64,000 bases of DNA from Fomes fomentarius. Its lineage: Eukaryota; Basidiomycota; Agaricomycetes; Polyporales; Polyporaceae. Shown here one piece after another: positions 31,887-40,143 of this stretch. Location: the NCBI GenBank assembly GCA_022606135.1, contig JABYQN010000001.1, positions 3,100,001 through 3,164,000 of the forward strand, read 5' to 3'. Both the position numbers and the translations under genes were made by a program. The number at the start of each line of letters is the position of its first letter. Positions within the stretch are counted from its first letter, which is position 1. The notes beneath the pieces are model-generated. The model was given only the letters and a program-made list of their open reading frames with translations, ran no database searches and had not been told where the DNA came from.

Positions 31887-34648
<2,762 letters not shown>

Positions 34649-35270: not shown

Positions 35271-38200
35271 ATGAAACGTGCACGGACAACTGACGATTCC
35301 ACCCAAGCTTCTCCGAAGAGAAAAGGTATGTGCAGTCATTACTGCCACTTGTGTCGTCGCAAACATTCAGATGATGGCGGTATCCACTCGTTAGAGCAGA
35401 AGCAGTGGTTGCCGAACACAGAAGTATGGGTGGAGATACCTCGTCGTCGTAGAAGGTAAGCTACAAGGTTATGTCCACACTAATGCATGAGACGCCTGAC
35501 TGTATCATGCGCTTAAGTCCGTTGTCTTCTACCTCCGGCTCGTCGAACCCAGTCGTTGTAGCCCGTCGTTATATCCTAAATGGAGATGAGATTGACGAAG
35601 ACGACCTTATCCTTGCTGGAGAAGCGGAACCCGATGACAATTTCGATGACAGTATCCCGATACGGACCTTGGACGAATATGCCCTTTACGAACCTGGGAC
35701 ACGAGAGCTGCTGCCGTCCAGTGCCCTTCTAGTAGACGGTTTGACTCTACAAGCCGTCGGTACCGTTCACACATATACCGAAGAAGGAGAAGACTCCAAC
35801 GATGAGGCCTCCGATGATGGCCTGAAGGGAGGGCAGCGTGTCCTCCTATCTCCCATTCTGGAATGCAGTGTCCACTGGCCTCTACGTGGAATAGGGTTTG
35901 ACTCGTGGGTAGTTGTGCTGTCTTGTGAAACACCGTGCTAATCTTTTTGTATAGCAAAATTTACATCCGCACACGACATGCGTGGTACATCCTTTTGCAA
36001 TCAGCTCGCGTGTATACTCCCTTCCACCGTGTCTTCCACTGGAATCACCGCATTGCCCACTGCCTCTTCACCCATCTCTTGAAGAATCCTCAGCTCACGG
36101 AGACTGACTTCCTCGCACTCCTGGAACAGGATGTCTCAATTGATCAGTTGACGTCCTCCGAATTTGTAAGTCTTCTGTTACCTCGGTCAGCTTTGAACCA
36201 ACTTTTGAATGTGTCGCAGGTTTCATACCTTGCCATGGTTATGGAACAGCTGGCCAAGGAGGACTACTCTCTCTGTCAACAACTCCTTGACTCGAGCCTT
36301 GTCACTAGGCTTTATCCCTCCCTCTCTTGTCTGACCAATATGCCCAATGCTCGTCCCGCCATTGACATCAGCCGCTCCCTCTCTCCAAGCCTGCCAACTT
36401 CCTTGAGTACTACTCAACGCCAGCGCCGCAAGTTGAAGGATATTGAGAAGGATGTCCTTCAGCATGCAGACCGCACAGTGGTCACACCCAGGGTGGGTGC
36501 CATTGCACAGCAGCTGTTCTCACAATCTTTGTGCCAAGCCAGAATGTCCCCTGATTCTGACTATGAGGTGCTGAGAGAACCTCCAGCCTATTCACTTCAT
36601 GCAGTGGATCCCCAATCCATTGAGTGGGTGACGGGCACTGAGGACCCCCATATATTCCACAGTGTATCCATTGATGGAGAGCTATACTCTGTAAGTTCTA
36701 TATATGATCAAGTGTCACTGAGTCTAATGTCTAAATCTCTGTAGGCTGGAGATGTCGTGATTGTGGAGAGTGGAGCAGATACCAACAGAAGCAGGTCCAG
36801 GAATGCTGCTTCTGATGAGGCTCAATGTTATCTCAATGACCTTGCAAACAGGAAGTGGTGAGCCACTTCTTGTCATCCCTGATCTGTGTTCTGACTGTTG
36901 GATAGGTTCTGCAAGATTAACTACTTCTATGAGGAGAAGATCTCTCATCAGGGGAGAAAGTTCTTCCATGCCCAGTGGCTTGAACATGGGTCTAAGACCC
37001 TACTCCAGGAGGCAGCCCACTCTAGATCCTTGTTCTGGATCAATGAGTGCTGTGACCTTTCTGTGGAGTGTATTTATTCCCACTGTAACCTTCAGACCTT
37101 GTCACCAGGTCAGATGGAACCAGTGGATGATGTCACTGGACATGAGAACAAGTTCTTTGCAGGGTAGGTGTCACATACATATAATGACATATTCTGCTAA
37201 TCTGAGTCTTGTATCTTTAGCTTAACATTAGATGCTAAGCATCATGCCTTTGTCATGCTGTCATCAGAGGACATTGCTGATGCTCTCTCCTACTGTGAGC
37301 AGCTAAGGCCTTGCCTACCTTGTGGTTTCTCCATCAGGCAGAATGTCAAGGAGTCCTGGACTTCTTTGCCTCAAGGGGGATTTGCTCACTTAGGAGTTGA
37401 CTACCATGTCAATGACTTTGTGTACCTCCACAATTCTCACAGCACTGTTGGCTTGCTGGACATAGCCCAGATCACTGAGTTCCTAGGTGTTCAGGGTGAT
37501 GAGGTCTGCCTCAGAGTTCAATCATATGGCCGATATGATGATTCTGTAAAGAGGCTTGGTGGTAATCACTTGGCACCCAGGGACAATGTAAGTATTTATT
37601 ATTATGGTCAAATAACTATGTCACTAACAATCAGTTTATAGCGCAGGCTCTTTCAGACTCAGGCCTTCTTCTCAGTGAAGTTGGCCTCAGTTGAGGGCAA
37701 AGCCTTTGTTGCTTGTCCCATCTCCCCTAGAGAAAAGGAGTCATGGATAAAGGAGGATGATCACTTTTACTGTGACCTCCAAGCCAAGTCCTTGTCCTCA
37801 GTTCAGGACATTAGGGCCCTACAGCCTTCTGGGCTGCCTCAATGCCAGCAGTGCAATGCTGCTGTCTTTGATGCCTCCTTAGAGAAGGAGGCTCTTCTCA
37901 ACACCTTCCACAAACTCAGAGGGCTTGAGTTGTTTGCAGGTTATTTTCAAAATTCATATCATATTGCATCACCAAGTCTGATTAGGTTTGTAGGGGCTGG
38001 TGGACTCTCTACAGGTCTGGAGATGTCTGGATTTGTGGAGACCAAGTGGGCTGTGGAGTTCTCTCCTAGTGCAGCAAAAACCTTTCAGTATGTATCTCAA
38101 TTCCCAATCTGATACACCTTTTTACTAACTTGCCACACAGGGCCAACCATCCTAATGCTGTGGTATACAATGAATCTTCCAACTGTCTGCTACAACATGC

Positions 38201-40143
38201 CATAGATGCTGCAGAGGGAAGGAATCCATCTCCTCTTAGGGGGAAGGGTAACAATGAGGAGCTTCCTCCCATGCCACAGAAGGGAGATGTGGAGTTTATT
38301 TATGGAGGTACATTTGCAGTTGCTCTTTGCAGTGTGATCTTCTGATGTATAATGTTTTAGGCCCACCATGCCAAAGTTTCTCTATGATGAACCACCATAG
38401 AGTGAGTCTAATGCTGATGTGCTTGCATACTGGAGACTAATGAATTTATAGAAGCCAGATGACATCAGGTAATTTACCCCCTTTCCTATTTTGATGGCCC
38501 TTACTCACAGCTATCTTTAGGAGTACCCTGGTCTCCAATATGATTTCCTTTGTGGAATTCTATCAACCAAAATACTTTCTTTTGGAGAATGTGGCAGGGC
38601 TATTGTCATATCATCTGGACAGACAGGTTCAAGGCAAGAATACAGTGAAGAGGCTCAAGATGGGTGTGGTAAAGTTCAATATCCGTGCATTGACAACACT
38701 AGGGTGAGTGATTTGGTGATATAGAATCAAACATTGGATCTAAGTCAGAGAATAGATATCAGGTGCATTTCAGGATCCTCCAAGCTGGACAGTATGGGGC
38801 CCCTCAAGGTCGACAGCGAGTCATCTTCCTTGGTGCTCGAGGGGATGTACCTCTCCCTGACTTTCCCATCCCTCAATATGCCTATCCTAAACCATTGCAC
38901 AATTACAACCTCCCTAATCAGGTTGTCCTTCACCCAACATATCGTGTTGGTCATGGTACAGAAGGACACCAATGTGCCCCCCTTCCTGCTGTCACTATAG
39001 ATGAAGCCATTGGAGATTTGGTAAGTGGTGTTTCTGTTTCCTTATTAACTCAGAATGCAATCTGACACTTTTACCAGCCTCAATTTAATTGGTCAGTTAT
39101 TTCAGACATCCCTCCAACATTATACTCACAAGCACTGCAGGAAGAATCCCCATAAGGTTTATGCTCCAACACCTGAAGATGTTCAGAAAGCACAGAACCA
39201 AGAGGCACAAGGGATACCCAGCTTTGATGCTGTCACAGCTCTCAAGTCATGGACAGCTATCAAATCATGTCATCCTGGGTTTCCCAGTCCAACACCCTAC
39301 CCTCATCCTCCCTTGGCTCGCTATCAGATGTGGCTGAGAGGTGAGAATGCAAGCACTGTTGACCACCACTACACCATGAGATATCCTGCTGTAGTGGTTG
39401 AGAGGTGAGTGTATGCAATTATTGCAATGACTGTCTGTGAAGCAATAACTATATTTGTGCCTCAGTGTCTGCAATATTCCTATGCTTAGCCACAAGCATC
39501 CCAAACCCAATCATGAAGGTACACTGATTCCTCACTTTCCTATAATCCTACCATTGATTGTATGGCCATAGACCTCCCTCGTAAGCTAAGACTGAAGCAC
39601 CTGAAGGGGGCTGACAGCAAAAAGAAGAGCATGAGTCAAAGTGAGTTGAGTGAGCCCTTTGATTATGCTATAATTCTTAGAGGCTGTTAGCAATCTATGG
39701 AAGACTTGATGGTAGTGGTCAGTTCATCACAGCTATGACTACCATCATGCCAAATGCCAAAGGAGGGAGAGTAATTCATCCTCATGTGAGTACAGTCAAT
39801 CACTCATTGATTCTCACTCTCATTGAGAGATCTGTAGCAACAGAGAGTCCTCAGCATTAGAGAATGTGCTCGGGCTCAAGGATTTCCTGACAGCTATCAT
39901 TTCGAGTCCACCAACAATGAGCCGAGAGCAATTGTGGCAGATGTATGCAATCCCAAACCTGAACTTTCTGTAAAAGACGCTAACAATTACATTCAACAGC
40001 AAATGAGGCAGATAGGGAATGCAGTGCCTGTTCCACTGGCACTGGCACTTGGGAGGGAGATCGGCAAGTCGCTGATCAAGTTATGGAAGCAGATGCAGGA
40101 GCAGGAGCAGCAGGCGAGGCTCCGCAGTCCCGAACTGGAATAA
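35271..40143 (+). CDS. DNMT1-type cytosine-5 DNA methyltransferase
   Basis: This nuclear enzyme methylates cytosine in CpG and is probably a maintenance methylase. Twenty introns can be spliced so that all 21 exons stay in frame. The N-terminal part ([18 protein letters not shown]) leads to an RFTS-like domain ([36 protein letters not shown]). Two BAH-type domains follow ([13 protein letters not shown] with [13 protein letters not shown]; and [12 protein letters not shown] with [12 protein letters not shown]). The catalytic domain has motif I ([19 protein letters not shown]), motif IV ([15 protein letters not shown]), motif VI (FLLENV), motif VIII ([10 protein letters not shown]), a long target-recognition region, motif IX ([19 protein letters not shown]) and motif X ([18 protein letters not shown]). 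I see no CXXC zinc finger. The 3' two-thirds is almost free of CpG, unlike everything around it. The gene is intact, so it is not a decayed copy. Confidence 0.95.
36541..39840. other. CpG desert within the methyltransferase gene
   Basis: By direct reading, this 3,300-bp segment contains 11 CpG dinucleotides (at 36632, 36756, 37531, 37642, 38684, 38811, 38817, 38838, 38943, 39319 and 39580). Sampled neighbouring sequence has about 4-7 per 100 bp. Two stretches, 36758-37530 and 37644-38683, have none. All nine CpGs after 36758 lie in arginine CGN codons and none lies in any of the 15 introns there. The pattern fits methyl-cytosine deamination with selection holding only the arginine codons. Confidence 0.9.

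Follow-up and report, generated by a model that had tools for sequence, protein, structure and literature searches.

A near-complete, CpG-specific depletion within the body of a DNMT1-type DNA methyltransferase gene of Fomes fomentarius

In a 64,000-nucleotide stretch of contig JABYQN010000001.1 from the Fomes fomentarius assembly GCA_022606135.1 (hereafter the window; coordinates are counted from its first letter), we found that a gene for a DNMT1-type cytosine-5 DNA methyltransferase (35271..40143, plus strand) has almost no CpG left in most of its body. This CpG desert (36473..39870, 3,398 bp) begins inside exon 5, ends inside exon 21, and contains 11 CpGs, as compared to about 175 predicted by composition; after correction for local base composition, a count this low or lower has a Poisson probability of about 10^-59. 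The loss is specific to CpG, the reading frame is intact, the arginines that keep CpG are under constraint, and the desert resembles another depleted stretch of the same genome. Judging from the sequence, it is likely that the gene body has long been subject to a CpG-specific C-to-T process, as at least one other stretch has been, and that this process was most probably the deamination of methylated CpGs in the spore lineage. Chronic CpG methylation of the gene body, or a CpG-directed mutator acting on it, would thus be the best reading of the desert.

The depletion is as deep as an earlier note on this DNA had claimed. That note counted 11 CpGs between 36541 and 39840, far below the flanks, and the same count was obtained here, with a CpG observed/expected ratio (O/E) of 0.065 as compared to 0.997 for the whole window; GpC O/E in the interval is 0.857. 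The two CpG-free stretches that it reported, 773 bp between 36756 and 37531 and 1,040 bp between 37642 and 38684, are the two largest CpG gaps in the window, and 1-kb O/E values across the desert are 0.02-0.12. A rise in TpG and CpA, set as a check beforehand, was also present, with a TpG+CpA O/E of 1.408 in the same interval versus 1.132 in the window. The best two-segment change-point fit placed the boundaries at 36429 and 40060, and starts from 36429 to 36497 and ends from 39864 to 40112 were within 2 log units of it.

Taking CpG loss as the proxy, both ends of the gene are spared, with ordinary CpG across 1.2 kb at the start and 270 bp at the end, as had been stated before. The 5' part (35271..36472, plus strand), which encodes the N-terminal region and the RFD and serves as an internal control, has 331 codons with CpGs of the classes CGN (22), NNC|G (21), and NCG (13), and another 7 CpGs in its four introns. 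CpG is back at the 3' end (39871..40143, plus strand), with 9 in 273 bp, eight in codons and one in an intron. Spread from a nearby depleted element was ruled out, since no 500-bp window outside 36001-40000 in the 64 kb falls below 0.758 and the only repeats found around the gene are short, weak ones of 16-20 nt.

The gene model was spliced by hand with a frame check, at the level of translation only, and has 22 exons and 1,251 amino acids without an internal stop; 4 of the 21 introns are in the 5' part, 16 in the desert, and the rest in the 3' end. The predicted protein has the domain set of DNMT1/Masc2, the DNMT1-RFD class of Basidiomycota, namely an RFD (Pfam DNMT1-RFD, PF12047, residues 94-232, 22 bits, which is just at the 22-bit cut-off), BAH matches (PF01426) in two stretches, the best at residues 401-538, and a C-terminal C5 methylase (DNA_methylase, PF00145, residues 742-1227, nearly the full domain, 189.4 bits). 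The desert covers residues 332-1180, which include the BAH region and the greater part of the methylase domain. What we take to be the PCQ, ENV, and QGR.R motifs, the last of these (QGRQR) presumably motif VIII, are all in the open frame of the predicted translation. The protein had 17 matches, of which the first 12, which we take to be Polyporales, show 44-54% identity over 84-100%, with Daedaleopsis nitida as the best. Because the reading frame is intact, we infer that the protein works today.

The assembly (40.9 Mb, 24 contigs) contains three PF00145 loci, the gene in the window, one on contig C2, and one on contig C3. The C2 locus matches the DNMT1 protein in pieces, with 32-47% identity from residue 176 to 1239, and was therefore named DNMT1b-like, while the C3 locus is read as DNMT5 because an SNF2 match lies 2.5 kb away on the same strand. 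The CpG content of both loci is ordinary. A second copy of the DNMT1 gene was found in the genome neither by DNA nor by protein search.

The restriction of the loss to CpG is most visible at third codon positions. Where the third base of a desert codon is a pyrimidine, it is C in 1 of 133 cases before G (NNY|G) and in 208 of 354 before other bases (NNY|H); where it is a purine, it is G in 1 of 59 cases after C (NCR) and in 171 of 278 after other bases (NDR). The same test in the 5' part gave 21/58, 88/144, 13/27, and 50/93, respectively. Third-base composition outside the CpG context is thus nearly unmoved, and this weighs against an AT bias, an effect of codon usage, or a foreign origin. The GC content of the desert (45%, versus 54.6% in the window) is what a segment from a CpG-poor or AT-rich donor, or an effect of codon usage, might show, yet we give such an origin next to no chance: third-base C outside the CpG context is like that of the 5' part, the introns are depleted too, and the 5' and desert parts of the gene have the same four nearest orthologues. 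On the strength of the codon context test and this two-part orthologue comparison, all three explanations, AT bias, codon usage, and foreign origin, were rejected.

The 16 desert introns (849 bp) contain no CpG where 28.8 were expected, as well as 79 TpG and 60 CpA where 57.5 and 41.4 were expected. The earlier note was right that these introns lack CpG, while the number of 15 that it gave is replaced by 16 in the hand-made model. TpA does not rise (rho 0.69 in the desert versus 0.72 in the rest of the window), and the process is therefore not the CpA-type repeat-induced point mutation (RIP) of ascomycetes.

From 36758 to 39870, nine CpGs are left, and all of them are at positions 1-2 of arginine CGN codons; non-arginine CpGs are entirely missing from this interval, where about 158 CpGs were expected by composition. 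The hand-spliced model thus bears out the earlier assignment of the nine CpGs between 36758 and 39840 to arginine codons, two of them in QGRQR. In an alignment of 13 of the 17 protein matches (P0001-P0013, whose species include Daedaleopsis nitida, Lentinus brumalis, Cerioporus squamosus, and Dichomitus squalens; P0014-P0017 were left out), six of these nine arginines (all plus strand) are invariant in 13/13 orthologues, namely those of CGA Arg631 (37531..37532), CGC Arg650 (37642..37643), CGA Arg944 (38838..38839), CGC Arg1069 (39319..39320), and the two CGA codons of QGRQR (38811..38818). The other kept codons are CGT Arg979 (38943..38944), with arginine in 11/13, CGT Arg910 (38684..38685), with arginine in 7/13, and CGT Arg1118 (39580..39581), with arginine in just 2/12, the sole kept CpG without evident constraint. 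Two further CpGs are found near the 5' edge on the same strand, one in an ACG threonine codon (36632..36633), where G to A would be synonymous, and one at GTC|GTG (36756..36757), where C to T would be. The claim that no free synonymous CpG remains therefore stands from 36758 on and fails for these two, which are partly free.

Arginine codons also reveal how the loss was accommodated. There are 9 CGN and 32 AGR codons in the desert, whereas CGN prevails in the 5' part (22, versus 3 AGR) and in ten protein kinase pieces without stops, one per near-identical group (103, versus 10 AGR). Among 21 alignment columns with arginine in at least 70% of orthologues, the DNMT1 gene has AGR in 10, CGN in 7, glutamine in 3, and serine in 1. 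Three of the four lost consensus arginines are thus now glutamine, which is the product of CGR-to-CAR changes; one of these is the Q between the two kept arginines of QGRQR, where 10/13 orthologues have R. The protein-level comparison for the same decay in the orthologues showed few changes.

These codons bear on the tempo of the process. In a single burst with a 95.5% hit rate, the chance that all nine arginine codons were spared is 7.6e-13, and the AGR codons need C-to-A transversions; both features argue for gradual decay over many generations. Slow CpG decay under purifying selection on a working gene, rather than one burst, is a well-supported reading of these data. The internal controls, the conservation among orthologues, and the similar spectrum in another depleted stretch (described below) uphold the decay and the selection on arginines proposed in the earlier note, while the long germ-line methylation that it invoked would be the likeliest cause.

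We propose the following mechanism. A heritable CpG-methylated domain in the gene body would be maintained by DNMT1 and DNMT5, and methylcytosines in the lineage reaching the spores would deaminate gradually, with C-to-T changes. Free CpGs in introns and at synonymous sites would then vanish, whereas arginine codons would either shift to the CpG-free AGR or be held as CGN by selection on the protein, and a few would drift to glutamine. The 1.2 kb at the start of the gene and the 270 bp at its end would lie outside the methylated domain. A methylated middle with unmethylated ends is the shape of gene-body methylation in other eukaryotes. 5-Methylcytosine as the agent, its upkeep as a heritable mark by DNMT1 and DNMT5, and any role in gene regulation are what we infer from this pattern. 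Basidiomycota are reported to have DNMT1-RFD and DNMT5 with a preference for CpG and to lack Dim-2 (PMC7862722, PMC13297926), and a review describes CpG methylation in Cryptococcus as kept for 50-150 million years without a de novo enzyme (PMC13297926). Given this case of maintenance, a methylated state of the DNMT1 gene could be inherited and not re-made.

A RIP-like CpG mutator would look alike, leaving the same pattern as germ-line methylation. In such a scenario, the 3.4-kb segment would once have been duplicated, CpG-mutated premeiotically in repeated rounds, and left single by later loss of the copy, a history that we regard as improbable. In Ganoderma sinense, RIP with a preference for CpG has been described (PMC4457147), and the dim2 methyltransferase gene is reported as amplified and mutated in Zymoseptoria tritici (PMC8016269). 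The edges of the desert are rather sharp, and the complete absence of non-arginine CpGs from 36758 to 39870 goes beyond the roughly five-fold CpG loss given in a review for the human genome (PMC13297926). A RIP target should, however, be repeated, and no second copy was found by DNA or protein search. Young duplicates should be mutated, whereas nine kinase pieces in three groups (94.6-100% identical), compared as pieces of 0.5-0.6 kb and including an identical C12/C16 pair that could be an assembly duplicate, have an O/E of 1.12-1.27; near-identical duplicates with ordinary CpG indicate that these young duplicates are not undergoing mutation. The CpA-to-TpA excess of ascomycete-type RIP is missing, as the TpA values above show. 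RIP in one burst was rejected, since nine arginine codons escaped it and others changed from CGN to AGR.

How unusual the desert is was evaluated in a sample of 220 kb from 28 places (L013-L040), fixed at round coordinates before viewing and amounting to less than 1% of the genome. We estimate that it covers about 90 genes at about 3 kb per gene, to which 28 gene pieces were added. The CpG O/E of 27 of the 28 places is 0.94-1.21. These 27 places, together with both sister methyltransferase loci and those parts of the window that lie outside DNMT1, gave 1,063 overlapping 1-kb windows with a median of 1.034 and a lowest value of 0.591. The gene pieces are similarly ordinary: 20 kinase pieces (of 148 matches) are at 0.88-1.32, and five RdRP pieces (of 27 matches) and two SET pieces (of 20) at 0.84-1.28. 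No depleted gene was recognized in the 27 places, in the window outside DNMT1, or among 27 of the 28 gene pieces, although the sample is small and a few per cent of genes could share such depletion.

The remaining gene piece, L088 (C18:387602-387961), is the sole TET/JBP-like match and is below the cut-off; its CpG O/E is 0.33 over 360 bp, with TpG+CpA at 1.6. It might belong to an old DNA transposon, or it might represent a second gene of methylation biology that is depleted. The remaining place, L025 (C6:500001-510000, 10 kb), is depleted, with a CpG O/E of 0.26 overall, 0-0.1 over long stretches, and near 0.05 across much of the first 6 kb. It has no reading frame above 190 codons and a GC content of 43.8%; its signature resembles that of the desert, and it may be old heterochromatin. 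The dinucleotide profile of the desert differs from that of the depleted parts of L025, which were chosen as depleted, by an rms of 0.107 (0.111 without CpG), as compared to 0.26-0.30 (0.17-0.19 without CpG) for the 5' part, the DNMT1b-like locus, and the rest of the window. Every gene or reverse-transcriptase piece sampled is less depleted than the desert, which is comparable to L025 only.

The sample provided two further observations. A mild CpG dip on contig C8 (L028, about 507001-508750), with 1-kb O/E values of 0.59-0.69, accounts for the lowest of the 1,063 windows. Two RdRP matches on contig C10 (L081 and L082, at 1995102 and 1999610), 4.5 kb apart with near-equal scores and CpG O/E values of 1.18 and 1.00, apparently represent a tandem duplication.

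The DNMT1 gene may not be its own target. It could instead be one of a group of genes marked by facultative heterochromatin and methylation in this fungus, included there on account of its expression pattern, an explanation that is compatible with methylation of the gene body and that we rate as a serious possibility, if not a probable one. DNMT genes are reported as expressed stage-specifically in Pleurotus ostreatus (PMC5073141), gene-body methylation as negatively correlated with expression in two Pleurotus (PMC5974365), and highly methylated genes, which in Coprinopsis are weakly expressed, have been described in Coprinopsis and Laccaria (PMC8889193). The 21 introns of the DNMT1 gene and the depletion of the TET/JBP-like piece also fit, and with so little of the genome sampled, we estimate that such a group could have escaped notice if it made up no more than about 3% of genes. 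Against such a set, none of the 1,063 windows, from which L025 and DNMT1 are left out, is under 0.59, and the kinase, RdRP, and SET pieces are all at or above 0.84.

Several observations weigh against decay by methylation, or at least against its simplest form. The rise in TpG and CpA is about half that of a simulation of pure CpG transition (TG 0.090 and CA 0.086, versus 0.108 and 0.106 in the simulation and 0.070 and 0.068 without decay); age, changes to AGR, or a CpG-poorer ancestor could be the reasons. The edges of the desert fall inside exons at no visible landmark, and around the gene only the short, weak repeats mentioned above were found. Among 20 reverse-transcriptase pieces (L041-L060, of 92 matches), 15 have an O/E of at least 0.84 and five are at 0.31-0.74, so depletion is no general mark of transposon-like sequence here, much of which seems young or untouched by the CpG process. 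Finally, since free CpGs were lost more completely than in the human genome, with its roughly five-fold loss, either methylation was of great density and age or a mutator was actively involved.

The complete loss at free sites, the use of AGR codons, and the half-size TpG/CpA excess would also be compatible with selection against CpG itself, by which the gene purged its CpGs so that its own product cannot silence it. We consider such selection very improbable, however, because L025, without long reading frames, has a similar spectrum, the 5' end of the gene keeps CpG, and selection at each of about 150 free sites is hard to credit.

If methylation of the gene body is accepted as the cause, DNMT1 might methylate its own gene body as a homeostat, or the gene might have inherited a methylated state for millions of years by maintenance alone, either of which would make it a fungal counterpart of IBM1 and ROS1; we regard this as a rather unlikely extension, and self-targeting or feedback by DNMT1 on its own gene is offered as a hypothesis only. 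In Arabidopsis, the sensors in the IBM1 intron (PMC11265718) and at ROS1 (PMC4380477) are described as components of the silencing machinery whose genes bear methylation or react to it. However, these encode a histone demethylase and a DNA demethylase and are backed by experiments, whereas the present case is a sequence scar in a maintenance-type methyltransferase gene.

Gene-body methylation of plants and animals forms an internal domain that spares the gene ends, is found at CpG in conserved genes, and affects many genes with mild CpG loss. The desert shares the internal domain, the restriction to CpG, the conserved gene, and the lowered O/E, but its CpG loss is near complete, and no comparable loss was found in the sampled kinase, RdRP, and SET pieces. 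According to a review, fungi have for the most part lost gene-body methylation, some exceptions aside; it is generally negligible in them and was given up as mutagenic to coding sequence (PMC13297926). Genic methylation is nevertheless reported in mushrooms, namely two Pleurotus (PMC5974365) and Coprinopsis (PMC8889193).

Among fungi, the dim2 gene of Zymoseptoria tritici is likewise a DNA methyltransferase gene hit by C-to-T mutation, though it is reported with many copies, stops, and loss of function (PMC8016269), whereas our searches found no second copy of DNMT1, its protein is intact, and only CpG is affected. Ganoderma sinense is also a polypore, for which CpG-specific mutation and methylation are described together with at least three methyltransferases (Dnmt1a, Dnmt1b, and Dnmt2); the CpG-preferring RIP and 5-methylcytosine reported there are on transposons, in contrast to the unique coding gene found here (PMC4457147). 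Cryptococcus offers a possible route by which an old methylated state is kept through maintenance alone, although its CpG methylation patterns are described as kept by DNMT5, and here a single gene body is concerned and DNMT1 genes are present (PMC13297926). By title and abstract beginning, none of the literature matches listed, from a collection that mostly does not extend to subscription journals, deals with methylation or CpG depletion of a DNMT gene itself in a basidiomycete.

Upstream of the DNMT1 gene, the next gene found is MCM7 (31918-33601, minus strand; Pfam MCM, MCM_lid, and HTH_MCM7), divergent from the DNMT1 start at 35271 on the plus strand. Because the two genes are divergent, an upstream region may be common to MCM7, a replication-licensing factor, and DNMT1, with its replication-foci domain.

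A conserved, intact fungal gene, itself encoding a methyltransferase, seems to have borne the full mutational cost of gene-body methylation, and it provides a natural codon-by-codon record of selection versus CpG decay. If orthologues share the desert, feedback control of DNA methylation in fungi would become directly testable. If the homeostat proposal is true, the level of CpG methylation would be written into, and would slowly erode, the very gene that keeps it, and the near-total loss of CpG would be the record.

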